From assembly GCF_004137765.1 (NCBI RefSeq), contig NZ_NOIS01000003.1, forward strand, positions 62,001-126,000: 64,000 nucleotides of DNA. The letters run 5' to 3'. Below the pieces are notes generated by a model. The model was not told the origin of the DNA, did no database searches, and worked only from the letters and a program-made list of their open reading frames with translations. Source of the stretch: Rothia uropygialis. Its GTDB lineage: Bacteria; Actinomycetota; Actinomycetes; Actinomycetales; Micrococcaceae. Both the position numbers and the translations under genes were made by a program. Each line of letters opens with the position of its first letter. Within the stretch, counting starts at the first letter, position 1. Shown one piece after another: positions 31,493 through 62,153 of this stretch.

Positions 31493-32444
31493 TTTCGTTC
31501 TCCTTCTCTGGCTTCTCGTACTCTTCCAAATCCTTACGGGTGGGCAAATCCGCGCCTTCCCGCGAGACGGTGATCGCGGCCGCACGAGCTGCACTGTTCA
31601 GCACGGTGCGCAAGTCATCCGCGCCGAGCTCATCGAGTTTTGCGCGCGTTCCTTTGCCCGATATTCCGCGGTCGATCAAGGCAGACAGCAAAGCAGCCAT
31701 GAGGGAATCTCCTGCACCGACGGTGTCCGCAACCTCCACGTGAGGCGGAACGACCCGGACCCCCTCCGGGCCGGTAGCGCGGGTGATGCCCCACGGGCCC
31801 CACTCGCCTCGCGTCACCACAACGAGTCCGACCCCGGCTTCGAGCCAAGCCCGCGCGGTCGCTTCGACGGTTCGATTTGGGTATAGCCACAACAGGTCCT
31901 CGTCCGAGGCCTTGACGACGTCCGCGTTGGCAACCACGGACTCGGCCCAGCTTCTGGCTTGGGCGGAGTCAGGAATGATCGTAGGACGGCAGTTGGGGTC
32001 GTAGGAGATCAGGGCGTGTGGCGCTGCCAGCCGTACGGCGTCCAGGACCGTTGAGGCACCGGGTTCGAGCATGGCCCCGATTGAGCCGACGTGCAACAGG
32101 TCGGTTTCCGCCAGGAGATCTTCGATGTGGTCTCGGGCCGCTTCGAGGTTCCATTCCAGCTGGAAATCATACGAGACCGAGCCTGCTTCGCCGAGGTTGG
32201 ATTCCGCCACCGAGGTCGGTGCGTCGTCTGGTTCGACAGGCAGTTCGACACCGGAGTTCCGAAGGTGTTCGTCGATGACGTTTCCGTGTTCGTCCCGACC
32301 ATACCTTCCGATGAATCGGGTGCGATGGTCGAGCCGCGAGAGACCCACGGCGACATTGAGCGGACTGCCACCTGGGTGGGTCCTGGGGATGGCGCCTTCC
32401 TTCTTCACGATGTCTACGAGGGCCTCGCCGATCACAGTTAACAT
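31479..32444 (-). CDS. PfkB-family carbohydrate kinase (fructokinase-like)
   Basis: A 321-residue ribokinase/PfkB kinase. GEALVDIV and HPGGSPLNVAVGLSRL at the start, SYDPNCRP in the middle and DTVGAGDSLMAALLSAL with the catalytic Asp mark the fructokinase-like branch. It phosphorylates a sugar, probably fructose, at the expense of ATP. It heads the kinase-PEBP-HAD-GDPD operon. Although the inositol island needs an IolC kinase of this superfamily, this protein lacks IolC-style N-terminal features and lies 15 kb away, so I do not assign it there. Confidence 0.85.
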   Translation of the reverse strand: MLTVIGEALVDIVKKEGAIPRTHPGGSPLNVAVGLSRLDHRTRFIGRYGRDEHGNVIDEHLRNSGVELPVEPDDAPTSVAESNLGEAGSVSYDFQLEWNLEAARDHIEDLLAETDLLHVGSIGAMLEPGASTVLDAVRLAAPHALISYDPNCRPTIIPDSAQARSWAESVVANADVVKASDEDLLWLYPNRTVEATARAWLEAGVGLVVVTRGEWGPWGITRATGPEGVRVVPPHVEVADTVGAGDSLMAALLSALIDRGISGKGTRAKLDELGADDLRTVLNSAARAAAITVSREGADLPTRKDLEEYEKPEKENENAGS

Positions 32445-48398: not shown

Positions 48399-49136
48399 AT
48401 GACAGCCTCAATCGACGTCACGATCGACCGCTCATCGCCCGTGCCGCTGTACCATCAGCTGGTCCATGGCATCGAGACGGCCATCGCCGAGGGCGTCCTT
48501 CCCCCGGGGACCATGCTCGACAACGAGCTTTCCCTGGCCAAGGACCTTCACCTGTCCCGACCCACGGTGCGCAAGGCCATGGACGAGCTCGTCCGTTCGG
48601 GGCTCCTGGTCCGCAAACGAGGCGTCGGGACGCAGGTCGTAGCCTCGGAGATTCGACGCTCCGTCGGATTGACCTCGCTGTACGAGGACCTGAGTGACGA
48701 CCACGCCCAGCCCACCACCGAGGTTCTGGAATTCAAGGAAACCAAAGCCCCGGACGACGTCGCCGAGCGGCTCAACCTCGCGTCGGGAGACCCTGTGTAC
48801 TACTTCAAGCGTGTGCGCAGCCGTTCAGGCACACCGCTGGCGATCATGGAAAATTGGGTTCCCCTCGAGATCGCGGACCTTAGCCGCGAAGGGCTCGAAT
48901 CTCGCGGGCTGTACACGATTCTGCGCCAACAAGGGATCAATTTCAGGCTCGCACAGCAGAAGATCGGCGCTGCGGTGGCCACCAATGAGCAGGCCAAACT
49001 GCTCAAGACGAGCACCGGATCGGCCCTGGTAACCATGTCCCGGACCGCAACCGACGATATCGGCAGACGAGCCGAAACCGGTCGACACGTCTATCGCGCG
49101 GATTCATATTCCTTCGAGATGACCCTCTCCGCCTGA
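48399..49136 (+). CDS. GntR-family regulator with UTRA domain (IolR-like)
   Basis: A 245-residue regulator. Residues about 12-78 are the GntR winged helix (PVPLYHQLVHGIETAIAEG, SLAKDLHLSRPTVRKAMDEL, GLLVRKRGVGTQV). Residues about 95-235 are a UTRA ligand domain (PVYYFKRVRSRSGTPLAIMENWVP). This HutC-type layout and the place next to iolB and the sugar porter suggest an IolR-like repressor that senses an inositol intermediate. It probably heads the GntR-iolB-TSUP transcript, with 48 bases to iolB. Confidence 0.86.
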   Translation: MTASIDVTIDRSSPVPLYHQLVHGIETAIAEGVLPPGTMLDNELSLAKDLHLSRPTVRKAMDELVRSGLLVRKRGVGTQVVASEIRRSVGLTSLYEDLSDDHAQPTTEVLEFKETKAPDDVAERLNLASGDPVYYFKRVRSRSGTPLAIMENWVPLEIADLSREGLESRGLYTILRQQGINFRLAQQKIGAAVATNEQAKLLKTSTGSALVTMSRTATDDIGRRAETGRHVYRADSYSFEMTLSA

Positions 49137-49184
49137 CCACAAGACTTCAACCGTCCGGAAACACCTCCCCGAAAGGATGCAACG

Positions 49185-50075
49185 ATGACGAACTGGGTTT
49201 ACCCCGCAGGCACAGCAACCGATGGCCCTTGGAATGTTTCCCTCGGTGCGTATGATTCCGCACAGCAGGTCGACGGCTGGGAGCATACCGGCCTCAAGAC
49301 CGCGACTTTCGCAGGTGAGACCATCTCCCTGGATGCCGTTCCGGAAGAACGCATCGTCATCCCGCTGACGGGCGATGTCGCCGCGGTGGTCGACGGTCAG
49401 AATTATGAGCTCTCGGGCCGCGAATCCGTTTTCCACGGCCCTACGGATGTCCTGTACACGGGGGCCAACAAGGCCGTAGAACTCTCCGGAGCTCAGGGCG
49501 TTCGCTTTGCCGTCGCCTCCGCACCGGCCAAGAATGAGTACCCTACTCGCCTGATCACCAAGGACGAGGCCCCGCTCGAATTGCGCGGTGCAGGCAACTG
49601 CTCGCGGGAGGTGCGGAACTTCGGAACCCCCGCGTCCCTTGAGGCCGACCGATTTATCGTCTGCGAAGTCCTGACCCCTGCCGGCAACTGGTCTTCCTAC
49701 CCTCCCCACAAGCATGACGAGGAAAAAGAGGGCGTCGAGACCCAACTCGAGGAGATCTACTACTTCGAGACGCGAGTGACTCCGGGTGCCCCGCAAGAAG
49801 CCACCGACTCGATCGGATACCAGCGTGTCTACGCCTCCGACGACCGTCCCATCGACGTCAATGCCGAAGTTCGAACCGGCGACGTCGTGCTGGTCCCTTA
49901 TGGCTGGCACGGTCCGGCTATGGCCCCTCCAGGATACGACCTGTACTACCTGAACGTCATGGCCGGTCCCGGGCCGGTCCGCAAGTGGCTCATCAGCGAC
50001 GACCCTCATCACGGATGGGTCCGTCAGCAGTGGGAAGAGCAGGATATCGACTCGCGCTTGCCTTTCGGCGGCTAG
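49185..50075 (+). CDS. iolB: 5-deoxy-glucuronate isomerase
   Basis: A 296-residue IolB. The tandem cupin fold shows TFAGETISLDAVPEERIVIPL at the N-terminus (typical strand pattern) and the metal site YPPHKHDEE, EEIYYFETR and YGWHGPAMAPPGYDLYYLN. IolB converts 5-deoxy-D-glucuronate to 2-deoxy-5-keto-D-gluconate, the step after IolD in myo-inositol breakdown. AAAGGATGCAACG precedes the ATG. It is on the plus strand behind the GntR gene, apart from the other iol genes on the minus strand, so two regulators may control one pathway. Confidence 0.93.
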   Translation: MTNWVYPAGTATDGPWNVSLGAYDSAQQVDGWEHTGLKTATFAGETISLDAVPEERIVIPLTGDVAAVVDGQNYELSGRESVFHGPTDVLYTGANKAVELSGAQGVRFAVASAPAKNEYPTRLITKDEAPLELRGAGNCSREVRNFGTPASLEADRFIVCEVLTPAGNWSSYPPHKHDEEKEGVETQLEEIYYFETRVTPGAPQEATDSIGYQRVYASDDRPIDVNAEVRTGDVVLVPYGWHGPAMAPPGYDLYYLNVMAGPGPVRKWLISDDPHHGWVRQQWEEQDIDSRLPFGG

Positions 50076-50081
50076 AGCTCC

Positions 50082-50831
50082 GTGCTGCCCGAATTGACGT
50101 TGCTCGCTTGGACCGGACTGGCCCTGGCGGCCGTATTGGTGGGGTTCTCTAAGACTGCGCTGCCAGGGATCAATACCCTCGCCGTGGCAATCTTCGCAGC
50201 GGTACTGCCCGCGAGGCCGTCCACGGGAGCGCTCCTGGTCCTCTTGCTCGTCGGTGACGCATTCGCTTTGTGGACCTACCGCCGACACGCCGATTGGCCG
50301 ACCCTCATCCGCATGATTCCCGCCGTCCTGATCGGTCTGGCGGCAGGCGGTGTCTTCCTGGCATTCGCAGGCGACGCCGTGGTGCAGCGTGTGATCGGCA
50401 TATTGCTGCTGATGCTGATGGGACTGACCCTGTGGCAGCGTCGAAAAAGGGCCAAAACCACGGGGGATCCCGTACCCGCATCTTGGGGCGCGGCCACCGG
50501 TTACGGATCCTTGGGCGGTTTCACGACCATGGTTGCCAATGCCGGCGGGCCCGTCATGTCCATGTATTTCCTCGCGGCTCGATTCCCCGTGAATGCTTTC
50601 TTGGGCACGGCCGCGTGGTTCTTTGCGACCATGAATGTGCTCAAGCTCCCGGTGTCTATCAGCTTGGGACTCATCACCTGGAACACGCTGCTCATGGATC
50701 TGATTCTGGTTCCCGCTGTGGTCGTTGGCGCCCTCTTTGGTCGGTGGGCCGCCCAGAAGATTCGACAGAAGACCTTCGACCTCGCCGTGATCGTGGTGAC
50801 GATCCTGGGCGCCGTCTACCTCTTAATATAA
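50082..50831 (+). CDS. TSUP-family (TauE/SafE) permease
   Basis: A 249-residue membrane protein of the sulfite-exporter/TSUP family with about eight hydrophobic segments: GFSKTALPGINTLAVAIFAA in the first half and GGFTTMVANAGGPVMSMYFL in the second form the two pseudo-repeat signatures. TSUP members move sulfite, sulfoacetate or organic acids. It starts at GTG six bases after iolB, so it is very probably co-transcribed. Its role beside inositol genes is unclear; export or uptake of an organic acid from the pathway is a reasonable guess. Confidence 0.83.
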   Translation: MLPELTLLAWTGLALAAVLVGFSKTALPGINTLAVAIFAAVLPARPSTGALLVLLLVGDAFALWTYRRHADWPTLIRMIPAVLIGLAAGGVFLAFAGDAVVQRVIGILLLMLMGLTLWQRRKRAKTTGDPVPASWGAATGYGSLGGFTTMVANAGGPVMSMYFLAARFPVNAFLGTAAWFFATMNVLKLPVSISLGLITWNTLLMDLILVPAVVVGALFGRWAAQKIRQKTFDLAVIVVTILGAVYLLI

Positions 50832-51738: not shown

Positions 51739-52749
51739 TCAGGAGTCCAGGTCGACAGCGACCTTCCGACCGGTTTCGGCTGATTTCTGAGCGGCATCGG
51801 CGAGGATTAACGCGGCGCGCCCGTCTTCGTACGTGGGGCTCCGCGATTCCTCGCCCTTGATCCATTTCACGAATTCTTCCAATTCAAGAAGGTACGCCGC
51901 GGCGTACCGCTCCAGGAAAAACTCCTGATAAGTGGCCTTGGACTCGACCGACACCGCGTTGGACAGGGTGACCAGCGACGTGGACGAGTTGAGCACATTG
52001 AGTGCCCCTTCGGATCCGAAAGCTTCCAAGCGCTGATCGTGCCCTGTTGCGCTGTGACGAGAATTGGTGATCGAGATCAGCTTTCCGTCCCGTGAGGTCA
52101 GGGTGACGACCACGCTGTCGAAGTCCCCGTGCTGACGAGCACCCTCGTCGAAGAGGCACGATCCCGTCGCACTCACGTCCACGATGTTGGGGGCGAAATA
52201 CCGTGCCATGTCGAAGTCGTGGATGGTCATATCCCGGAAGATCCCGCCGGAAACACCCAAATATGCAGCGGGAGGCGGCGCCGGATCGCGGCTGATGATG
52301 GTCACCTCTTCGAGGTTCCCGATCTCGCCGGCCTGGACCCTTTGCCGCACCTCGGCAAATGCCGGATCCATTCGCCGATTGAACCCCAACGCCACCGGAA
52401 CCTGGGAGGCAGCCACTTTGCCCCTCAGGGCATTAACCCGCCCGATATCCAGGTCAATCGGCTTTTCGCAGAGGACCGCAACCCCGGCGTCGACCGAAGC
52501 CTCGATCAATTCCACGTGCGTGGGGGTCGGGGAGGCTATGACGACTCCGTCCACCTCACCTGAATTGATCAGTTCGAGAGGGTCCGCCGTGACCTTGGCC
52601 CCAATGGTCTCCCCCAATGTGCGAGCCGTATCCGGGAAGGCATCTGCAATCCAGGTCAGTTCGATGTCCGGCGATGCGGTCAAGTTCTGGAAGTGAACCT
52701 GCCCTATACGACCGGTCCCGATCAGGCCGATGCGAATTTTCTGAGCCAT
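51739..52749 (-). CDS. iolG: Inositol 2-dehydrogenase (Gfo/Idh/MocA family)
   Basis: A 336-residue Gfo/Idh/MocA dehydrogenase. GLIGTGRIGQVHFQNL binds NAD; LCEKPIDLD carries the conserved Lys of the EKP motif, and GGIFRDMTIHDFDMARYF the catalytic Asp/His pair of IolG. It oxidises myo-inositol, or a related inositol, to 2-keto-myo-inositol. AAGGAACTGT precedes the ATG; it lies 12 bases after the IolE-like gene and is the last gene of the MocA-SDR-IolE-iolG operon. Confidence 0.88.
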   Translation of the reverse strand: MAQKIRIGLIGTGRIGQVHFQNLTASPDIELTWIADAFPDTARTLGETIGAKVTADPLELINSGEVDGVVIASPTPTHVELIEASVDAGVAVLCEKPIDLDIGRVNALRGKVAASQVPVALGFNRRMDPAFAEVRQRVQAGEIGNLEEVTIISRDPAPPPAAYLGVSGGIFRDMTIHDFDMARYFAPNIVDVSATGSCLFDEGARQHGDFDSVVVTLTSRDGKLISITNSRHSATGHDQRLEAFGSEGALNVLNSSTSLVTLSNAVSVESKATYQEFFLERYAAAYLLELEEFVKWIKGEESRSPTYEDGRAALILADAAQKSAETGRKVAVDLDS

Positions 52750-52761
52750 ACAGTTCCTTCC

Positions 52762-53622
52762 TCAGATCAGTTCTTTGATGAACTGGGCGGAGTAGCGGGC
52801 ATCCTCGTGGGCCTTGGCGGCGTCGTCTTCCGTATCCAGAACTGTGTCCTGCTCGAGTACGTACCAACCCTGGTAACCCGTGTCCTGGAGGCCTTTGACA
52901 ATTTCTGCGATCTTCGCGTCGCCCTTGCCCAGCGCTTGGTACATTCCGCGGCGGCATCCTTCTCGGTAGTCGCAATCCCCGTCGGCAACCTGCTGAGCTA
53001 CGGAAAGGTCCACGTCCTTCAAATGGATGTGCGCGACCCGATCCGGGTGCTTACGGACCAGATCCAGCGGATCACCGCCGGCAAGAGTGTAATGCCCGGT
53101 GTCCACACAGAGGCCGATGGTCGACCCTGCGAGGACGCGCTCGGTTTCCTCCGGGGTCTGCACCAGGGTTCCCATGTGCGGATGCAAAGTTGTGGTGACA
53201 CCCACGGCGGCGGCTACCTCATTGATGGTGTTGAGGTTGCCCAGGAGGGTCTCCCATTCGGAATCGCCGAGGTCGGGACGAGTATCGTATCCCGCCTTCC
53301 CGGAATTCGCCGACAGAACCATGACGTCCGCCCCTGCCGCCGCGTACGCTTCAAGTTCCTTGCGAATCTGCGGCAGCGGATCCTGGTCTTCACGATGCAG
53401 AACCGCAGGAAAGAAGCCGCCGACGGCCGAGAGGCCGTGTTCTTTCAAAACCCTTGAACGGCCCTCGGGATCGTCTGGCAGAAAGCCCTCCGGTCCGAAC
53501 TCGGTCGCCGAGAACCCGAGCCCCCTCATCTCCGTGAGGACTTGCTCTGGCCTGAGTTGGACTCCCCAGTCTGGGACCTCGATAACGCCCCAGGTAATGG
53601 GGGCGGTGGCCAATTTCGTCAT
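52762..53622 (-). CDS. Sugar phosphate isomerase/epimerase-like protein (IolE/IolI type)
   Basis: A 286-residue TIM-barrel protein of the AP-endonuclease-2 superfamily. It starts at ATG 53622 (TAPITWGVIEVPDWGV); a longer frame upstream is not similar to anything. Metal-site segments TTTLHPHMGTL, LCVDTGHYTLAGGDP and AHIHLKDVD, and Glu in WYVLEQDT, match the inosose dehydratase (IolE) and 2-keto-myo-inositol isomerase (IolI) group. In this operon IolE, dehydrating 2-keto-myo-inositol to the substrate of IolD, is needed and is the best call; IolI cannot be excluded. Confidence 0.82.
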   Translation of the reverse strand: MTKLATAPITWGVIEVPDWGVQLRPEQVLTEMRGLGFSATEFGPEGFLPDDPEGRSRVLKEHGLSAVGGFFPAVLHREDQDPLPQIRKELEAYAAAGADVMVLSANSGKAGYDTRPDLGDSEWETLLGNLNTINEVAAAVGVTTTLHPHMGTLVQTPEETERVLAGSTIGLCVDTGHYTLAGGDPLDLVRKHPDRVAHIHLKDVDLSVAQQVADGDCDYREGCRRGMYQALGKGDAKIAEIVKGLQDTGYQGWYVLEQDTVLDTEDDAAKAHEDARYSAQFIKELI

Positions 53623-53651
53623 AATGTTCCCTCTTCCGTGAGGCATGTTTT

Positions 53652-54434
53652 TCAGTCGTGCGTTCCCGGAATCATCTGATCCCAGTCGATGATCGATCCC
53701 GTGACAACACCGCTGCGTTCCGAGAGGAGGAAGACCACGGCGTCCGCGATTTCGTCCGGCTGCCCCAATTTGCCCATCGGCTGTGAATCGGACGCCTCCT
53801 TCAGCCAAGAGTCCGAAGCATCGTGGAAGGTTTTTTGGATGGCTTCTTCGCCCGGAGTCTGCGTCCACCCGATGTTCAGCCCATTGATCCGGATCCTGTC
53901 CCAACGGTGGGAATAAGCAGCATTCTTGGTCGCCGCGGCCAGCCCGGCTTTAGAGGCTACGTACGGCGCAAGGTAGGGCTGTCCGCCGTGCATCGACATA
54001 GTGAGGATGTTGAGGATGGTTCCCGGCTCCCCGCGACCCTTCATATCGGACACAGCAGCCTGCATCGTCATGAACGGTGCGACGAGGTTGACCGCGAGAT
54101 GCTGGCCAAGGAGCTCACGGTCAGTGTTCTCCAGCGAACCCCGTGTGGTGACCCCCGCCGCGTTGACCAACGAATCGATCCGACCGAACCGGCCGACGGT
54201 TTCGGCGACGACGCGCTCGGCCTCCCCTGGAACCTCCAGATCCGCGACGATGCCCAAGGTCTCGGCAGCGAATTCGCCGAGGCCTTTCTCCGCGTCGGCC
54301 AGTTTTTGCCCGTTACGTCCAACGATTGCGACACCACGGGCCCCTTCCCGAGCCGCGGCCCGCGCTATGGCGAGCCCCAGGCCTTGAGAACCGCCCGTGA
54401 CCAGAACGATTTTGTCCTTCAAAAGATCTTGCAT
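53652..54434 (-). CDS. SDR-family oxidoreductase
   Basis: A 260-residue classical short-chain dehydrogenase. LVTGGSQGLGLAIA binds the cofactor, NAAG is the structural motif, and Ser (LTMSMHG) with YVASKAG make the catalytic Ser-Tyr-Lys set. VVGRN after the second strand favours NADP. It lies two bases after the Gfo/Idh/MocA gene and 29 bases before the IolE-like gene. In an inositol cluster it may oxidise a stereoisomer or methylated inositol, or reduce an intermediate; the substrate is not known. Confidence 0.85.
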   Translation of the reverse strand: MQDLLKDKIVLVTGGSQGLGLAIARAAAREGARGVAIVGRNGQKLADAEKGLGEFAAETLGIVADLEVPGEAERVVAETVGRFGRIDSLVNAAGVTTRGSLENTDRELLGQHLAVNLVAPFMTMQAAVSDMKGRGEPGTILNILTMSMHGGQPYLAPYVASKAGLAAATKNAAYSHRWDRIRINGLNIGWTQTPGEEAIQKTFHDASDSWLKEASDSQPMGKLGQPDEIADAVVFLLSERSGVVTGSIIDWDQMIPGTHD

Positions 54435-54436
54435 GA

Positions 54437-55660
54437 CTATTTCCTCCCCTGACCCTGCGCGCTGGTGTTGGAAACCTGCTCGACGTTCTGCCAGCTGCCG
54501 CTTTCGGCTGATTTCTCCGCCGCGGAAACCACGCGGTTGGCCGCCAAACCGTCCTTGATGTCTGCGTGCTGCGAGTCCTGCCCCAGGAAAGCGAGCAGAA
54601 ATTTCTTGGCCTCGATGGTCTTGAGGTCGTCATATCCCATGGGGGTTCCGGCACCCGGTTGGAAGACCGAGAAGTCGCCGAATTCCGCGCCAGCCATGAC
54701 CGTGGTGTAACCAACGTGGGGCGCGGTATTGAGCGCGAGCTGGAGCTCATTCATGCGTTCGAAGTCCCAACGGAAAGACCCTTCGGTTCCGTAGACCTCG
54801 ATGCCATAGGAGGCACGCGGTCCATTGGCCACACGAGAGGCTTCCAGCGTTCCGATGACGGGCGATGCCGACCCCGAAGAATCGGGTTGGGTGTAACGGA
54901 CGATCATCGAAGCGTAGTCCTCGTTCTCCACGGGCTTCATCTCGCCATTCTCGACAATCGCGAAATGGGTCCCGCTGCCCATAGGAAGTTCAGGGCGCTC
55001 GGAGTAGACCGTCGAGGTCGCGGCCGTGACCTCTTCAACGGGTCCCACCACATAGTGCGTCAGATCGATCAGATGCCCCATGAGGTCTCCGAGGACGCCC
55101 GACCCCGCCAGATCGCGAACGAAGCGCCACGACAGAGCCCCCCGGGGATCCGCCGAGTAGTCGGCGAAGAACGCGCCGCGGATGTTGGTGATTCGCCCCA
55201 ATTTGCCGTCCGCCACGAGCTGCCGCGCGTACTCGATGGCGGGCGCATTGCGGTAGTTGAACCCCACGGCACTGACCACGCCGGCCCGATCCGCCGCGTC
55301 GGAAATGGCTTGCGTCTCCTCCGCCGACCGTCCGGCGGGCTTTTCGAGCCAGAAAGCCTTGCCAGCGGCCGCCGCGTCCTGGGCAATCTGAGCGTGCAAG
55401 AAGTTCGGGGCACAGATCGAGACAACATCCACGTCAGGGTTGTTGAGGACCTCGTGGTAGTCGGTGGTTCCCTTCTCAAAACCCAAGACGTCCACAGCGT
55501 ATTCGGCACGGTCCTCGGCGGTATCGGCGGCGATCACCAAGCGAGGTTTGATCCCTAGCTCCGGGTAGAAGACAGGAATGTTGGCATACGCCCGAGAATG
55601 GACCTTTCCCATCCAACCAACGCTGATGAGCCCCACTCCGACGGTTTGCTGTTCTGCCAT
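54437..55660 (-). CDS. Gfo/Idh/MocA-family oxidoreductase (second inositol dehydrogenase)
   Basis: A 407-residue dehydrogenase, longer than IolG. VGLISVGWMGKVHSRAYAN is the nucleotide-binding start, WLEKPAGRS the EKP motif, and GSGVLGDLMGHLIDLTHYV the active-site helix with Asp and His. Proteins of this length and style are annotated as scyllo-inositol or chiro-inositol dehydrogenases or as other sugar dehydrogenases. It heads the second catabolic operon, 36 bases behind a LacI-type operator and a recognisable promoter, with AGGAGAAATC as ribosome binding site. Confidence 0.83.
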   Translation of the reverse strand: MAEQQTVGVGLISVGWMGKVHSRAYANIPVFYPELGIKPRLVIAADTAEDRAEYAVDVLGFEKGTTDYHEVLNNPDVDVVSICAPNFLHAQIAQDAAAAGKAFWLEKPAGRSAEETQAISDAADRAGVVSAVGFNYRNAPAIEYARQLVADGKLGRITNIRGAFFADYSADPRGALSWRFVRDLAGSGVLGDLMGHLIDLTHYVVGPVEEVTAATSTVYSERPELPMGSGTHFAIVENGEMKPVENEDYASMIVRYTQPDSSGSASPVIGTLEASRVANGPRASYGIEVYGTEGSFRWDFERMNELQLALNTAPHVGYTTVMAGAEFGDFSVFQPGAGTPMGYDDLKTIEAKKFLLAFLGQDSQHADIKDGLAANRVVSAAEKSAESGSWQNVEQVSNTSAQGQGRK

Positions 55661-55695
55661 GATTTCTCCTCATTGAGATCGCCCGACCGGAGTAT

Positions 55696-55707
55696 TGGAC
55701 CGGTCCA
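55696..55707. promoter_or_regulatory. LacI-type operator O1 (TGGACCGGTCCA)
   Basis: A perfect 12-base palindrome with a central CG, as expected for LacI/GalR proteins. It lies between the -10 region and the start codon of the second catabolic operon, where binding would block RNA polymerase. The same sequence occurs twice more upstream of the first operon. Confidence 0.75.
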
Positions 55708-55716
55708 TATCGATTC

Positions 55717-55746
55717 AGCTTATTTTTCAGATTGTTCTAATGTCAA
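55717..55746 (-). promoter_or_regulatory. Probable promoter of the MocA-SDR-IolE-iolG operon
   Basis: On the minus strand TTGACA (55746-55741) is followed after 18 bases by TAAGCT (55722-55717). The -35 element is perfect, the -10 is weak. The LacI-type operator starts nine bases downstream. Confidence 0.5.
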
Positions 55747-55799
55747 TACAAATTATGGGAAAGCGGCTTCCCCGCGGCTGGATACCGCTCTTCTCAGGC

Positions 55800-56732
55800 C
55801 TACGCCGTGGCAGCGGGTTGACCACCGTCCAGAACGGCACGGACCGCCAAGGCCGCATCGTGGAAGGTCGCGCTAGCCGCATTCTTGCTCAGTCCCATCA
55901 CATGCGGAGTCAGGACCGTCTTGGGATGCTGGTACAGAGGGTGGTCCTGGGCCGGCTCAGGGTCGAAGGCATCCAGGCCGGCTCCGGCGATACGTCCTTC
56001 TTCCAGGGCTTCCAGGAGCGCGTCCTCGTCCACAATCCCGCCGCGACTGACGTTGATCAGAACCGCCCCGGGTCGCATGATGTTCAAGGCATCTCGGTCG
56101 ATGAGGTTCCTGGTTTGCTCGACCAACGGCAGGTGGAGAGAAACGACGTCGGAACCCTTGAGGAGTTCTCCCACGGTTTCCGCACGAATCTCCGAATCAA
56201 CCGTGGCCACGGGATCGTAGGCCAGGATCTCCATTCCGAAGGCCTGAGCGATATGCGCCACACGTCGACCGATACGTCCATAGCCCACGATGCCCAGGGT
56301 CGCGCCTTCGAGATCACCCACCGGAACTCCGGCTCGCTCGGACCAACGGCCTTCGCGCACCAACCGGGTCAGTGGGTCCAAAGACTTGACCAAGTGCAGG
56401 ATGTGGGCGAAAGCCCCTTCGGCTACGGCATTGGTATTGGTTCCCGGGGTTATGGCAACCGGGATACCGCGCCTCCCGGCAGCGGGAACGTCGACGTCGT
56501 CGACCCCCACTCCCGTTCGGGCGATGACCTTGAGCTCGGGCATGCGCGCGAGCTCCGCTTCACCGACCGTCACCGCGGCGCGGACTATCGCGCCCTCCGC
56601 GACGGCAAGGTCCTGCGGACCCGGATCGGCGACAAAATCCACGTCGGCCCCGAGGACTGTCTCGACCTCCTCGGGCGGCACCGGGCCCAATCCTATGACG
56701 ACGTGGCGATTCCGCTGTGTGGATTCAGTCAT
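55800..56732 (-). CDS. D-2-hydroxyacid dehydrogenase (SerA-like)
   Basis: A 310-residue D-isomer-specific 2-hydroxyacid dehydrogenase. GIVGYGRIGRRVAHIA is the NAD site; Arg in NVSRGGIVDED, Glu in DAFDPEPAQ and His in LTPHVMGLS are in catalytic places. It starts at ATG 56732 behind GGGAGGGG and overlaps the aldolase gene by eight bases; a longer frame upstream is antisense to nothing useful and was not used. It could reduce or oxidise a hydroxyacid made by the aldolase, for example hydroxypyruvate or tartronate semialdehyde-like products. Such an enzyme is not part of the textbook inositol route. Confidence 0.85.
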   Translation of the reverse strand: MTESTQRNRHVVIGLGPVPPEEVETVLGADVDFVADPGPQDLAVAEGAIVRAAVTVGEAELARMPELKVIARTGVGVDDVDVPAAGRRGIPVAITPGTNTNAVAEGAFAHILHLVKSLDPLTRLVREGRWSERAGVPVGDLEGATLGIVGYGRIGRRVAHIAQAFGMEILAYDPVATVDSEIRAETVGELLKGSDVVSLHLPLVEQTRNLIDRDALNIMRPGAVLINVSRGGIVDEDALLEALEEGRIAGAGLDAFDPEPAQDHPLYQHPKTVLTPHVMGLSKNAASATFHDAALAVRAVLDGGQPAATA

Positions 56733-57510
56733 GGCGAGCCCCTCCCAACCGAGCGGCGACGTCGCGAGCCGCATTTGCCAAGAGGGTCGAGTCCGACCCG
56801 ACCGGCAGGAACGTGAAACCCTGCGCGGCCCGCTTTTCCGCGAGGTCGGCATTGGCACTGAGAATTCCTGCCGAGATCCCGGCATTCCGTGCGGCGCCGA
56901 GAACACGGTCCACGGCGTCCTTGAATTCCTCCGATTCGAAATTGCGCGGGGTTCCCAAAGCGTAGGAGAGGTCCAGCGGCCCGATGAACAGGACATCGAC
57001 TCCGTCCAGGGCGGCAATCTCTTCCACTTCGTTGAGCGCGCCAAGGGTTTCGATCTGGACGATGCACAGGGCTTCGCGGTTCGCGGTATCCAGCGCACCC
57101 GTGTCAAGACCCCACCGAACGGAACGGTTGTACGTGGCCACTCCGCGCATACCCTGAGGAGGGTACCGGAAATAGCGCAACGTCTCCTCAACCTGGATGG
57201 CATCGTTGATTCGGGGCAGCATGATCCCTGCGGCACCTGCGTCCAGCGCCCGACCAATGCGAATGCGCTCCAAGGATTCGACGCGCACCAGAGTCGCCGT
57301 ACCGTAGCCGCCCGTGGAAGCGACGACCTGACCGATGTGGGACTCGTCGGATCCCCCGTGTTCGAGGTCCAGCAGAACCCAGTCCAGGCCGGCAGCTGCC
57401 ATGATTTCCGCCGCCGCGGGATGTCCTATGCCACAAAAGGCACCATGCGTCAGCTCGCCCGAGCGGATGCGTCGAGCCAGCTTTCCCTGGTCCAATGGAG
57501 TCGAGCTCAT
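56725..57510 (-). CDS. HpcH/HpaI-family aldolase
   Basis: A 261-residue class II pyruvate aldolase of the HpcH/HpaI (GarL-like) family. DWVLLDLEHG, VRVES, GIMLPRINDA, IVQIETLGALN and LFIGPLDLSYALG show the metal-binding Glu and Asp and the general base region. These enzymes split 4-hydroxy-2-oxo acids, releasing pyruvate and an aldehyde. The ATG at 57510 overlaps the iolD stop (ATGA), so the aldolase is coupled to IolD. Standard inositol pathways use the unrelated IolJ on a phosphorylated substrate, which makes this gene notable. Confidence 0.86.
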   Translation of the reverse strand: MSSTPLDQGKLARRIRSGELTHGAFCGIGHPAAAEIMAAAGLDWVLLDLEHGGSDESHIGQVVASTGGYGTATLVRVESLERIRIGRALDAGAAGIMLPRINDAIQVEETLRYFRYPPQGMRGVATYNRSVRWGLDTGALDTANREALCIVQIETLGALNEVEEIAALDGVDVLFIGPLDLSYALGTPRNFESEEFKDAVDRVLGAARNAGISAGILSANADLAEKRAAQGFTFLPVGSDSTLLANAARDVAARLGGARHD

Positions 57511-59444
57511 ACATGCCACCTCTGATCCCGCAGCCCCTCTTCGTAGTCCGCCCGCAAGGGCGGGACCCACTCCTGCTCACTGACTTCAGCCGGAGCCACG
57601 TCCCAGAAAACTTCCGATCCGGGCAGATCCACCAGGGGAATGGTGGGGACAACGATCATGACTGGGCCCTCATGGCTTCTGGTGTCGTCCAAAGCGGTGC
57701 GAACTTCCTGAGCAGAGGTCGCTCGAATCACCTTGGCACCGAGCCCTTCCCCGATGCTCTCGAGCCCCACCTGAAGGTAATCGCCCGAGAGCCGCCCCTG
57801 ATCGTCGTGGCCGCGGTACCGGAAGTCGTTTCCGAATTGTTCGCCGAACTTCATCATCTGAAGACGGCGGATCACCTGGAAACCGTGGTTTTCCGAAACC
57901 ACGTAGGTCACCTTGAGACCTTCTTGGGCCGCGGTGAGGATCTCCGTCGGGTTCATGAGGAAAGTCCCGTCCCCGATGAACACCGAGACGCGCTTTTCTT
58001 CATCAGGATTCGCCAGACGTACCCCGATGCCGGCAGGAATCTCGTACCCCATGCACGAGAAGCCGAATTCGAGATGCGCATGGCGCCCTTCGGTCGCGTC
58101 CCAGACCTTGAGGAGGTCACCGGGAGGGCCGCCTGCCGCCGCGATCACGACGTCGCCGCTCTGGGAGTGCTCCTGCATCAAGCCGATCAGCTGACCCTGG
58201 GTCAGCACGGCATCCGTGTCCGGGATATTGAGGTCGGCGTGTTCGGGTGCGTTCTTGTCGAACAGAGTGTCAGGGTCCAACGCTGCGGCGCGCTGCGGAC
58301 GCCACTCGTCCTTCTGACTGCGGATCTCTTCGGACCAGTCCTGGGATACACCGTAACCGCTGAGTTCGGACAACAATTCTTCGATGCCTCGTCGAGCGTC
58401 GGAGACGGCTGCGATCCCGCCCTGTTTAATGGCGTCGATTTCTGCAATGTTGATTGCGGCGAACCGCACATCGGGGTTCTTGAACATGGTCTGGGATCCC
58501 GTGGAGAAATCGGTCAGGCGGGTACCGATCGACAGGACCAGGTCGGCCTGGGCCACGAGCCGGTTGGTGGCCGGGTTTCCCTCCAGGCCGAGTCCGCCGA
58601 GGAACCAGTCTGCATCGTGCTGAACGGCGCCCTTGCCGCCGAAGGTTTCGGCAACGGGGATGCCGGTCGCCTCCCCGAGCTGCTGCAACTTTTCCTGGGC
58701 CAACGAATAGTGGATCCCGCCACCGGCAACGATCAGGGGTTTTTCTGCACCGCGGATCGCCTCGGCGATCGCCTGGATCTCTTCCTCCTGGGGTGCTGTG
58801 CGACGAATCGGCCAGTCCCGCTCGCGGAAGAGCTCGACGGGGTAGTCGTACGCCATGGACTGCAGATCCTGCGAGACCGAGAGCACGACGGCCCCGGTCT
58901 CGACCGGGTTAGCGAGGACCCTGAAGGCTTGTGGCAGGGAGGTAATGAGCTGCTCGGGTCGACTGATCCGGTCGAAGAAGCGGGACACGGGCCGGAATGC
59001 GTCATTGACGGTCAGGCCTGGGTCACTGGGGTCCTCGAGTTGCTGCAAGACCGGGCCCTGGCGCCTCGTCGCGTAGGTATCCCCTGGCAGAAGCAACAAG
59101 GGCAACCGGTTGACGGTCGCCAAGGCTGAGGCCGTCACTAGGTTCATGGCCCCGGGCCCGATCGAGGCCGTCACAGCGAGGGTCTGGCGCCGCTGGGTTG
59201 CTTTGGCGAGGCCCGAGCCGATGTGGCCGAGGGACTGCTCATTGCGTCCCTGGATGAACGGGATCGAGTCCGCGTACTGGGAGAATGCCTGGCTGAAACC
59301 AGACACGTTCCCGTGTCCGAAGATCCCTCCGGCGGCCGGGATGAAACGGCGCCGTTCGCCGTCCATGATCGAATACTGATTACTGATGAATTTGACGATG
59401 GCTTGAGCGACGGTGAGTCGGATCGTCGGGTCCTGATGAGTCAT
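57507..59444 (-). CDS. iolD: 3D-(3,5/4)-trihydroxycyclohexane-1,2-dione acylhydrolase
   Basis: A 645-residue thiamine-diphosphate enzyme. RNEQSLGHIGSGLAKA holds the activating Glu, SIGPGAMNLVTASALA the N-terminal fold and IGDGTFLMNPTEILTA the ThDP-binding motif; FGFSCMGYEIPAGIG is typical of IolD. It opens the ring of trihydroxycyclohexanedione to 5-deoxy-D-glucuronate, the substrate of IolB. ATG 59444 has AAGGAAGCATC before it; ATG 59459 is less likely. It lies 49 bases after the aldehyde dehydrogenase gene in the first catabolic operon. Confidence 0.93.
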   Translation of the reverse strand: MTHQDPTIRLTVAQAIVKFISNQYSIMDGERRRFIPAAGGIFGHGNVSGFSQAFSQYADSIPFIQGRNEQSLGHIGSGLAKATQRRQTLAVTASIGPGAMNLVTASALATVNRLPLLLLPGDTYATRRQGPVLQQLEDPSDPGLTVNDAFRPVSRFFDRISRPEQLITSLPQAFRVLANPVETGAVVLSVSQDLQSMAYDYPVELFRERDWPIRRTAPQEEEIQAIAEAIRGAEKPLIVAGGGIHYSLAQEKLQQLGEATGIPVAETFGGKGAVQHDADWFLGGLGLEGNPATNRLVAQADLVLSIGTRLTDFSTGSQTMFKNPDVRFAAINIAEIDAIKQGGIAAVSDARRGIEELLSELSGYGVSQDWSEEIRSQKDEWRPQRAAALDPDTLFDKNAPEHADLNIPDTDAVLTQGQLIGLMQEHSQSGDVVIAAAGGPPGDLLKVWDATEGRHAHLEFGFSCMGYEIPAGIGVRLANPDEEKRVSVFIGDGTFLMNPTEILTAAQEGLKVTYVVSENHGFQVIRRLQMMKFGEQFGNDFRYRGHDDQGRLSGDYLQVGLESIGEGLGAKVIRATSAQEVRTALDDTRSHEGPVMIVVPTIPLVDLPGSEVFWDVAPAEVSEQEWVPPLRADYEEGLRDQRWHV

Positions 59445-59493
59445 GATGCTTCCTTGCATTCAACGGGTGGTCTGACAGTTGGGCGGGCCCGGG

Positions 59494-60942
59494 TTACTGG
59501 TCCCAGGGCTGGCCGTGCAGGACCACGGCCTTTTCTTCGGTCATCTCGGCTACGGCGGCCCGAGGACCTTCCTTGCCGACGCCGGAAGCCTTCAGCCCTC
59601 CGTACGGCATGAGGTCCGCACGCCACAAGGGTGTCCAGTTGATGTGCACGACGCCTGCGTCAATCTCACGCGCGGCACGGACCGCATTGTTGTTGTCACG
59701 GGTGAACACACCGGCTGCGAGGCCGTAATCGGTCGAATTCGCCAGATCCAGTGCTTCGCCGACGTCCTGGGCCACGGAGACGGCCACACCGGGACCGAAG
59801 AGTTCTTGCTGAGCAATTGAGGACCGCGGGTCGACGTTGGAGAGGATCGTCGGTTGCACGATCGCACCATCCCGCTCGCCACCCTGAGCCAAAGTCGCGC
59901 CTTCGTCGACGGCTAGGCGGAAAGCCTGTTCCACACGCTGGGCCTCTTGCTCGTTGATGAGCGTGCCCACGGTTGTCGTGCCGTCCGATGGGTCGCCGGT
60001 GCGATGCTCTGCAACCTTGGCCTTGAGGGCATCCAGGAAATCGGTTGCGACATCGCGATGTGCGACGACTCGTTGAACCGAAATACATACCTGGCCCGCG
60101 TTGATGTAGCCGCCCGCCGCAACGGCGCTGGCCGCGAGCTCGATGTCGGCATCCGGCAGAACGACCACGGGCGCGGAGGACCCTAGTTCGAGGGATAGCT
60201 TTTTCACGCCGGCCGTAGCAGCTATGTGCTGCCCAACCGCTGTGGACCCGGTGAAACTGATCTTCCGGACCCTGGGGTCCGAGGTGAGCGCGTCGCCGAT
60301 GGTCTTACCCGACCCGGTGAGAACCGACAGGACACCTTCGGGCAGACCCGCATCCACGAAACACTCCGCGAGCGCGAGCGCGGTCAACGGGGTGGCCCCG
60401 GCGGGCTTGAGGATGACGGCGTTGCCCGCAGCCAGAGCGGGGGCGATCTTGTGGTTGACCAGGAGAGCCGGGTAGTTGAAGGGACTGATCGCGGCGACCA
60501 CTCCCACTGGCTGCCGGATGGTGAATCCGAGCTTCTCCAGGCCGGTGCCTCGGTTGGCGTCCAGTGGCAGGGACTGACCGTAAAGCTGCGTACCTTCGAA
60601 TGCGGCAAGACGGATAATGTCCCCGGAGCGCTTGGCTTCGCCGATGGCCTCGCCCAGCGTCTTTCCGTTTTCTGCACTCAGTACGCGGCCGATCTCCTCG
60701 GAGCGCTGGTCCGCCAGGTCAGCGGCTTTGAGGAGAATGTCCGAGCGCTCGTATGCCGGGGTCCGACGCCATTTCGCGGCGCCGTGTTCCGCCGCACGGA
60801 TGGCCTTTTCGACGTCGCCGGAACCGGCAGAGGCCACCTGCCCGACGATTCGCCCGTCGAAAGGCGACGTCACTTCCCGAGGAGCGGAACCGTTACTCGC
60901 TTTCTCCCAGATGCCTCCGATCAGGAGTTCCTTGCTGACCAT
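59494..60942 (-). CDS. NAD(P)-dependent aldehyde dehydrogenase
   Basis: A 482-residue aldehyde dehydrogenase, starting at ATG 60942. SPFNYPALLVNHKIAPALAAGN, FTGSTAVGQ, LSLELGSSAPVVV (Glu) and INAGQVCIS (catalytic Cys) are the family motifs. It does not show the extra features of CoA-acylating IolA/MmsA, and looks more like lactaldehyde or semialdehyde dehydrogenases. In the LacI-controlled operon it could oxidise malonate semialdehyde or the aldehyde released by the HpcH-type aldolase. It is the first gene of the operon, behind two TGGACCGGTCCA operators. Confidence 0.86.
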   Translation of the reverse strand: MVSKELLIGGIWEKASNGSAPREVTSPFDGRIVGQVASAGSGDVEKAIRAAEHGAAKWRRTPAYERSDILLKAADLADQRSEEIGRVLSAENGKTLGEAIGEAKRSGDIIRLAAFEGTQLYGQSLPLDANRGTGLEKLGFTIRQPVGVVAAISPFNYPALLVNHKIAPALAAGNAVILKPAGATPLTALALAECFVDAGLPEGVLSVLTGSGKTIGDALTSDPRVRKISFTGSTAVGQHIAATAGVKKLSLELGSSAPVVVLPDADIELAASAVAAGGYINAGQVCISVQRVVAHRDVATDFLDALKAKVAEHRTGDPSDGTTTVGTLINEQEAQRVEQAFRLAVDEGATLAQGGERDGAIVQPTILSNVDPRSSIAQQELFGPGVAVSVAQDVGEALDLANSTDYGLAAGVFTRDNNNAVRAAREIDAGVVHINWTPLWRADLMPYGGLKASGVGKEGPRAAVAEMTEEKAVVLHGQPWDQ

Positions 60943-60993: not shown

Positions 60994-61011
60994 TTTTGGA
61001 CCGGTCCAAAA
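60994..61011. promoter_or_regulatory. LacI-type operator O2, 18-base perfect palindrome
   Basis: TTTTGGACCGGTCCAAAA is a full palindrome with the 12-base core TGGACCGGTCCA at 60997-61008, 52 bases before the aldehyde dehydrogenase start. It is the longest and best of the three copies. Confidence 0.8.
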
Positions 61012-61053: not shown

Positions 61054-61065
61054 TGGACCGGTCCA
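61054..61065. promoter_or_regulatory. LacI-type operator O3 (TGGACCGGTCCA)
   Basis: The second copy ahead of the first catabolic operon, 57 bases centre to centre from O2 and 60 bases after the lacI-type gene stop. Paired sites at this distance allow a tetramer to loop the DNA or to cover the promoter. Confidence 0.75.
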
Positions 61066-61124: not shown

Positions 61125-62153
61125 TTACCCCGTCGTGGACCGACGGACCACCAATTCCGGCATCAGAGTTACGCTTTCGCCGTGGTGGCCGGGCTGCGCT
61201 ACCGATTCCGCAACCGTATCCGCCGCCAGGCGCCCGATGTCTCGATTTCTGGGATCGACCGAGGTCAACGAGATACGGGACATTGCCGCAATCGAGGTGT
61301 TGTCGAATCCTGTGATGGCAAGATCTTCCGGAACCCGCAGTCCCATGTGGTCGGCGGCGGACTGCACACCCAGAGCCACCAGATCGCTGACCGCTACGAT
61401 CGCCGTCGGGCGGGAGTCAGAAGTCAACATCGCAGTCGCGGCCTCGAAACCCTCCTCTTCCGAGAAGGCCGCCTTCATGGCCCGCTCGGGCAGTCCGCAC
61501 TCGCGAACGAACCTCAGATACGCGGCGTGGCGCCCCCTCGAGACCCCGCCTCCCTCACCTCCGACAAAACCGATGTCCCGGTGTCCCTGTTCGATCAAGT
61601 GATCCATGACCAAACGGATACCCGCTTCGTCGTCCGCTCGGACGGAAGGGTGGTCCGACCCGTGCACTGCCGTGGCACTGGCAAAAACCACCGGCATCCC
61701 GACCGGAAGGCGGGCATCTTCGACGGATGTTCCCACAATGACGAGGCCACGCGGACGGAGGTCACGAAACATATCGAGAACCTGTTCGTTGATCTCCCCG
61801 TACCTGTCCCCCCGGTACGCTGCACCGGCAGCGGTCGCGCTGGCCACCAAGCCGTATTGGCCGTGCTCGTGCAAAGCCACCCTCGCGGCCTCGGCAATTT
61901 CGGTCAGGACGGGGTTCTCCAGGTCGACGACCAGGATCCCGACAAAAGGAGACCCCTCCGTCGCGAGTGTGCGAGCCAAAAAATTCGGGCGGTATCCGAG
62001 GTTCTCGGCGGCGGCATGAATCCTCTTGAGCCGCTCCGGACCCACGCGTGAAGCGTCTTGGAATGCCAAGGAAACCAAGGACTTGGAGACTCCCGCTTCG
62101 GCCGCCACATCGCGGATCGTCGGGCGATCATTCCGGTCAGAGGTCTTTTCCAT
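61125..62153 (-). CDS. LacI/GalR-family transcriptional regulator
   Basis: A 342-residue LacI-family repressor starting at ATG 62153. The helix-turn-helix is TIRDVAAEAGVSKSLVSLAF and the hinge ENLGYRPNFLARTLA; the periplasmic-binding-protein-like sensor fills the rest, with DEAGIRLVMDHLIEQGHRDIGFVGG and the usual ITGFDNTSIAAMSRISLTSV region. It lies directly upstream of, and in line with, the catabolic operon it likely controls through TGGACCGGTCCA. It probably senses inositol or a pathway intermediate. Confidence 0.9.
   Translation of the reverse strand: MEKTSDRNDRPTIRDVAAEAGVSKSLVSLAFQDASRVGPERLKRIHAAAENLGYRPNFLARTLATEGSPFVGILVVDLENPVLTEIAEAARVALHEHGQYGLVASATAAGAAYRGDRYGEINEQVLDMFRDLRPRGLVIVGTSVEDARLPVGMPVVFASATAVHGSDHPSVRADDEAGIRLVMDHLIEQGHRDIGFVGGEGGGVSRGRHAAYLRFVRECGLPERAMKAAFSEEEGFEAATAMLTSDSRPTAIVAVSDLVALGVQSAADHMGLRVPEDLAITGFDNTSIAAMSRISLTSVDPRNRDIGRLAADTVAESVAQPGHHGESVTLMPELVVRRSTTG

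Follow-up and report, generated by a model that had tools for sequence, protein, structure and literature searches.

A second inositol-type gene block in Rothia uropygialis that may encode a kinase-free branch through an HpcH-family aldolase

We analysed a 64,000-nucleotide window of the 2.96 Mb genome of Rothia uropygialis (G000:C3:62001-126000). The window contains a block of minus-strand genes resembling those for inositol breakdown, in the order LacI regulator, aldehyde dehydrogenase (ALDH), IolD, HpcH/HpaI aldolase (HpcH) and D-2-hydroxyacid dehydrogenase, followed after a gap of 140 bases by a Gfo/Idh/MocA dehydrogenase, a short-chain dehydrogenase/reductase (SDR), an IolE-like protein and IolG. 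The features of the block, in window coordinates, are as follows.

61125..62150, minus strand: LacI-family regulator adjoining the block, a probable repressor (Pfam LacI and Peripla_BP_3)
61054..61065, unstranded: operator-like palindrome TGGACCGGTCCA in the interval between the LacI gene and the ALDH gene (exact match)
60997..61008, unstranded: operator-like palindrome TGGACCGGTCCA 5ʹ of the ALDH gene (exact match)
59494..60942, minus strand: hydrolytic-type ALDH, for which we propose oxidation of 5-deoxyglucuronate at C1 (PF00171, 518 bits)
57507..59459, minus strand: IolD2, trihydroxycyclohexanedione hydrolase, a paralogue of canonical IolD (TIGR04377, 755 bits, cut-off 715)
56725..57510, minus strand: class II aldolase of the HpcH/HpaI family, with 3,4-dihydroxy-2-oxoadipate as its proposed substrate (PF03328, 132 bits)
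55801..56732, minus strand: D-2-hydroxyacid dehydrogenase, probably of the NAD type, for which we propose oxidation of a deoxyhexarate at the C2 hydroxyl (PF02826 and PF00389)
55696..55707, unstranded: operator-like palindrome TGGACCGGTCCA 5ʹ of a putative second transcription unit (exact match)
54437..55660, minus strand: Gfo/Idh/MocA dehydrogenase, kin of levoglucosan and scyllo-inositol dehydrogenases (NF052479, 304 bits, below the cut-off of 650)
53652..54434, minus strand: SDR oxidoreductase, accessory (NF004847, 357 bits, above the cut-off of 240)
52762..53622, minus strand: IolE-like inosose dehydratase (TIGR04379, 181 bits, below the cut-off of 290; PDB IolE 3cny)
51739..52749, minus strand: IolG, inositol 2-dehydrogenase (TIGR04380, 367 bits, above the cut-off of 355; PDB 3euw)

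A first-pass annotation of this DNA had recognised IolD, IolG, IolB, a second Gfo/Idh/MocA dehydrogenase and an SDR, and family scans bear out all five calls. It had described a further protein as IolE/IolI-like. The best solved relatives of that protein bear the name IolE, although its TIGR04379 score falls short of the cut-off. For the second Gfo/Idh/MocA dehydrogenase, the best solved relatives are 6a3f, listed only as a "putative dehydrogenase", and 5ya8, a scyllo-inositol dehydrogenase. The annotated HpcH/HpaI aldolase and D-2-hydroxyacid dehydrogenase match their Pfam families, and the HpcH start is indeed coupled to the iolD stop by an ATGA overlap (57510-57507). The start of the hydroxyacid dehydrogenase gene overlaps the end of the HpcH gene by 8 nt.

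The gene set is conserved in relatives. We compared 20 genomes that carry the block: six among 297 genomes of the order, two further among 396 of the phylum, and 12 further genomes of the family in which an HpcH relative lies beside a second iolD. The six order genomes, R. uropygialis included, are those with a close HpcH relative (at least 53% identity); ten have a relative at E<=1e-40. The closest protein to the window HpcH is from Kocuria sp. TGY1127_2 (96%). Loci in relatives were matched to a panel of 28 proteins of G000, and genes with no counterpart there are mostly unnamed. ALDH, IolD and HpcH are adjacent in 19 of the 20 genomes, with iolD and HpcH overlapping by 4 nt in 16/19. A D-2-hydroxyacid dehydrogenase is present in 18 of the 20 blocks; of the others, that of G594 is cut by a contig end and that of G608 has a 55-residue match only. 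G608 is also the exception to the three-gene adjacency: its block (L112, G608:C140:1-14000) shows no IolD or ALDH match within 1.5 kb before HpcH. The SDR was matched in 12 of the 20 stretches.

For four distant HpcH relatives (38-40%; G074, G086, G038 and G169), the surrounding 20 kb that were read contain no match to iolD, and hence linkage to iolD is specific to the close HpcH group. Wider searches with HpcH yielded two relatives among genome contigs, both at 34%, and three plasmid records, all haloarchaeal and each below 41%; a search of three genomes from the same family as G594 gave nothing useful.

The IolD of the block is also distinct. It shares 43% identity with its canonical counterpart in this genome, and in a tree the block IolD proteins fall on one side of a branch with support of 93/100, their 20 rows including that of G425, a genome without HpcH, on a long branch. 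Two iolD matches occur in 16 genomes of the family, 13 of which have the block. The remaining three are G425, with a third iolD type and no HpcH, G500, with two canonical copies, and G356, canonical in the one copy read. This context survey was confined to genomes with two iolD matches, so that 103 family genomes with a single match, and the second copy of G356, lie outside it. In G425 (L086, G425:C1:196001-216000), the third-type IolD is 41% identical to block IolD; a different ALDH (32%) is present, there is no HpcH match, and other dehydrogenase genes surround it. The two canonical-type iol operons of G500 (L147, L148) are ~1.1 Mb apart; as far as the second was read, it lacks a match to canonical IolE.

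The block appears to be under its own control, separate from the canonical operon. Exact copies of TGGACCGGTCCA occur at three sites only in the genome, at window positions 55696, 60997 and 61054, 5ʹ of both rows of block genes. Among relatives, exact copies are present in 8 of 20 block stretches, versus none of 12 canonical-operon stretches, and 16 of the 20 genomes have a match to the LacI regulator within the block or next to it. We infer that the LacI protein binds TGGACCGGTCCA. In G480, two copies precede genes for a binding protein and a permease, followed after ~1 kb by the ALDH gene. The best family for this sugar-type binding protein is rhizopine uptake, at 173 bits and below the cut-off of 420; import genes were scanned in this one block.

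The first-pass annotation noted that iolC, iolJ and iolA are missing. This holds for the window; in the genome as a whole it does not, since a canonical iol operon lies on the same contig, 40-45 kb past the window, with the following genes in contig coordinates.

C3:166057-167490: iolA (726 bits)
C3:167582-169483: second iolD, canonical (824 bits)
C3:170509-171438: iolC (356 bits, cut-off 300)

The operon also holds iolE-like and iolG-like genes and one for a sugar transporter, and its IolE-type protein, like that of the block, scores below the cut-off (147 vs 290). Next to iolC is a gene for a Cgl0159-like aldolase (396 bits), likely, from its position, to be the 2-deoxy-5-keto-gluconate-6-phosphate aldolase that stands in for IolJ; classical class II IolJ was outside the search, and DUF2090 has no match in the genome. 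Complete loss of iolC, iolJ and iolA is thus rejected. Nonetheless, iolC and the Cgl0159-like aldolase gene belong to an operon other than the block. The same annotation had named intact, co-regulated iolC, iolJ and iolA elsewhere in the genome as evidence against a separate branch. Genes for IolC, IolA and an aldolase are there; co-regulation has left no sign in the form of the exact palindrome, which none of the 12 canonical stretches carries. A second gene of the methylmalonate-semialdehyde dehydrogenase (MMSDH) type, at G000:C4:254015-255448 (660 bits), possibly serves valine breakdown. At window positions 31671-32372 (minus strand) is a gene for a probable PfkB-type sugar kinase that scores 93 bits with the IolC profile (cut-off 300) and is not iolC.

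The first-pass annotation had counted iolB as a member of the cluster. The gene is real (270 bits with TIGR04378, cut-off 205) and is the only iolB match in the genome, but it is encoded on the opposite strand, outside the positions 51739..60942 that the annotation gave for the cluster, and no exact TGGACCGGTCCA adjoins it:

49185..50075, plus strand: iolB, the single copy in the genome

In G114, G184 and G518, iolB sits within the canonical operon, and in G480, G321 and G500 a GntR-IolB pair adjoins that operon. Hence, the window iolB probably serves the distant canonical operon and not the block. At window positions 48399-50831 (plus strand), iolB is grouped with genes for a GntR regulator and a TauE/SafE-type permease, apart from the block. 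It stands beside the block, as a divergent neighbour, in three of the 20 genomes (G000, G393 and G488).

Some relatives carry an IolA gene inside the block itself. Eight blocks are of the type found in G480 and G490, and five of these (G480, G490, G460, G508 and G509) finish at the 3ʹ side with an IolA gene that is complete or nearly so; in G423, IolA is cut by the contig end after 71 residues, and in G494 the contig ends first. For two of the block IolA proteins the MMSDH profile was run, with 707 bits as the score (cut-off 448.5). In G490, G480 and G321, the canonical operon contains a separate IolA. A tree of IolA proteins places the five block copies at two points, next to canonical copies in both cases, apparently as a result of separate recruitment or of gene conversion from canonical genes. 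Either origin suggests that the substrate is the same, malonate semialdehyde. The block IolA of G480 and that of G508 (L132, L154) hardly differ from the canonical copy in G480 (L128), indicating very recent duplication or gene conversion. The block of G321, the last of the eight, ends with a 64-residue IolA remnant (L155, 1972-2163), apparently a decayed gene.

Residue patterns give some indication of what the block enzymes might do. Cys286 and Glu252 of the ALDH are invariant (19/19 rows). The first-pass annotation doubted that this protein is of the IolA type, and rightly so: it scores 260 bits with TIGR01722 against a cut-off of 448.5. Canonical IolA has no Glu at the position matching Glu252, whereas the ALDH shows the hydrolytic pattern. 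We considered the ALDH as a malonate semialdehyde enzyme and disfavour this, since it occurs alongside IolA in some blocks and keeps the hydrolytic Glu; with IolA in the same block, a hydrolytic ALDH needs another substrate.

In HpcH, D48, H51, R76, Q152, E154 and D180 are invariant (20/20 rows) and align with the catalytic set of HpaI, whose roles they probably share. The protein falls under the equivalog cut-offs of HpaI (181/369 bits), GarL (153/407) and PRK10128, 2-keto-3-deoxy-L-rhamnonate aldolase (128/441). The block HpcH proteins have a GSD motif in common with Escherichia coli GarL, and in both a loop is shorter, by one residue, than that of RhmA and of the four distant paralogues. 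Four residues of the D-2-hydroxyacid dehydrogenase, R230, E259, H277 and D173, are invariant (18/18 rows); the first three make up the Arg-Glu-His catalytic set of such enzymes, and D173 is probably the Asp of NAD-type members. Enzymes of the HpcH family can use hydroxypyruvate as nucleophile: according to PMC7610986, 19 such enzymes were found when 571 class II aldolases were screened.

What pathway could these enzymes form? In the scheme we propose, IolG and/or the second Gfo/Idh/MocA dehydrogenase would convert a cyclitol to an inosose, the IolE-like enzyme would dehydrate it, and IolD2 would open the ring to give 5-deoxyglucuronate, the established product of canonical IolD, or an epimer. 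The ALDH would then oxidise the C1 aldehyde to yield a deoxyhexarate. The D-2-hydroxyacid dehydrogenase would oxidise the sole alpha-hydroxyl, at C2, which is D-configured in the case of a D-gluco substrate, to give 3,4-dihydroxy-2-oxoadipate. Retro-aldol cleavage between C3 and C4 by HpcH would release hydroxypyruvate and malonate semialdehyde, and IolA would convert the latter to acetyl-CoA. We infer the substrates throughout, the order of the ALDH, hydroxyacid dehydrogenase and HpcH steps, and the starting cyclitol. The substrate class suits HpcH, since 3,4-dihydroxy-2-oxoadipate is a 4-hydroxy-2-oxo acid, the kind of compound that HpcH enzymes cleave. 2-deoxy-5-ketogluconate, which the first-pass annotation had itself marked as a weakness of its proposal, is rejected as the HpcH substrate on chemical grounds because it is not a 2-oxo acid. 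Placing the ALDH and the hydroxyacid dehydrogenase ahead of HpcH would answer this objection by supplying a 2-oxo acid, and would bypass 2-deoxy-5-ketogluconate.

Three observations support such a branch: the conservation of the gene set, the palindrome whose exact copies in this genome are confined to the block, and the dedicated IolA in the blocks of some relatives. They favour the core of the earlier idea, that HpcH cuts an unphosphorylated intermediate with the help of the hydroxyacid dehydrogenase and the ALDH. The order of steps in that idea calls for revision, since the two dehydrogenases probably work ahead of HpcH and make the 2-oxo acid that it uses. We see an even chance that the block constitutes a further inositol-type pathway, apparently with regulation of its own, as a kinase-free branch without IolB, IolC and IolJ. 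The fuller proposal, of a new non-phosphorylative actinobacterial route through an HpcH-family 3,4-dihydroxy-2-oxoadipate aldolase, with LacI-type control of its own and no need for IolB, IolC or IolJ, we advance tentatively, and judge its chances to be slightly short of even.

Several findings weigh on the other side. No IolA appears in the stretches read for 12 of the 20 blocks, that of the window among them. Exact TGGACCGGTCCA is likewise absent from 12/20 block stretches. With up to one mismatch, TGGACCGGTCCA has nine sites in the genome, six of them elsewhere, equal to the nine for a reversed control pattern; with up to two, the window has five sites vs 4.86 expected. Since counts that tolerate mismatches equal those of controls, only the exact sites are telling. 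The block is patchy in distribution, four other genomes of the same genus being listed without an HpcH match at E<=1e-40. Lastly, among 15 block genomes searched for iolC, 14 contain a match above the cut-off, and the other, G594, shows a pair of partial matches below it (G460, G423, G494, G508 and G509 were outside this count). Replacement of the canonical route by the block in some species is thus not supported. The block has never been seen without iolC, its products could enter the canonical route, and it looks like an extra branch rather than a replacement.

The same iolC count speaks for another explanation, in which the block only widens the canonical route to other cyclitols. The 5-deoxyglucuronate made by IolD2 would pass to IolB, IolC and the Cgl0159-like aldolase, and the ALDH, HpcH and hydroxyacid dehydrogenase would treat a side group or side product. 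In keeping with this, iolB adjoins the block in the three genomes named above, and iolC is just across from the block in G114. However, none of the 20 block stretches has an iolC or Cgl0159 match inside the block, iolB is only ever a divergent neighbour, and HpcH follows iolD directly, with the 4-nt overlap in most genomes. Moreover, IolA is found in the block in two separate groups, suggesting that malonate semialdehyde is made there. We regard this explanation as less likely than the kinase-free branch.

The hydroxyacid dehydrogenase could equally reduce hydroxypyruvate, a further point against the order of steps that we propose. If the cleavage is the same and this enzyme acts after the aldolase, its product would be D-glycerate, and another enzyme would have to make the 2-oxo acid. 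Its relatives include glyoxylate/hydroxypyruvate reductases. Yet a family scan found no sugar-acid dehydratase among the block genes of the window (blocks of relatives, matched to the 28-protein panel only, may hold one), and the invariant D173 probably points to NAD, which suits oxidation. We consider this alternative order of steps quite improbable. More doubtful still is that the block acts on another ring compound, such as an amino-, deoxy- or O-methyl-inositol, such that IolD2 would yield an aldehyde acid other than 5-deoxyglucuronate and the aldolase products would differ. The rhizopine-like binding protein of G480, the extra dehydrogenases in blocks and the low score of the IolE-like protein all fit this possibility. 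On the other hand, IolG and IolD pass inositol-specific cut-offs, the canonical IolE of the genome falls below its cut-off as well, and the near identity of the block IolA of G480 and G508 to the canonical IolA of G480 leaves malonate semialdehyde the likely product.

The titles and abstract openings that we searched, from which most subscription journals and preprints were absent, contain no description of a route like the one proposed. A passage search of PMC9603128 found nothing relevant. Inositol breakdown beyond the IolD product is described as a single route via IolB and IolC. If correct, our proposal gives a concrete role to three generically annotated enzymes, and supplies an aldolase for a 3,4-dihydroxy-2-oxo acid. 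Controlled construction of that motif is described in PMC7610986 as a long-lasting goal of aldolase research.

How does the proposed branch compare with known systems? The block has the same first three enzyme types as the canonical Iol pathway, and the proposed exit, malonate semialdehyde and IolA, is also shared. Canonical breakdown runs through IolG, IolE, IolD, IolB, IolC, IolJ and IolA; in contrast, the block lacks IolB, IolC and IolJ, has ALDH, D-2-hydroxyacid dehydrogenase and HpcH instead, and is probably under LacI-type control of its own. The CoA-acylating IolA is absent from the window cluster, and is found in the blocks of some relatives only. An oxidative pathway in Thermotoga, via 5-keto-L-gluconate and tagaturonate, likewise breaks down inositol without IolC and IolJ; it is not known to involve IolD or an HpcH cleavage to malonate semialdehyde.

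For the aldolase, HpaI (4-hydroxy-2-oxoheptanedioate aldolase) belongs to the same family, has aligned catalytic residues and is the closest curated family by score, although HpcH falls below its cut-off. HpaI yields pyruvate and succinate semialdehyde, homologues of the products proposed for HpcH, whose substrate would be one carbon shorter and carry a 3-hydroxyl. The galactarate/glucarate pathway of E. coli (GarD/GudD, GarL, GarR, GarK) also has no sugar kinase ahead of cleavage. It resembles the proposed branch in using an HpcH-family aldolase, with a similar loop, on a C6 2-oxo-dicarboxylate to give a semialdehyde and a three-carbon 2-oxo acid. In the block, the substrate would instead come from IolD and ALDH, with a 2-hydroxyacid dehydrogenase in place of the dehydratase and hydroxypyruvate in place of pyruvate.

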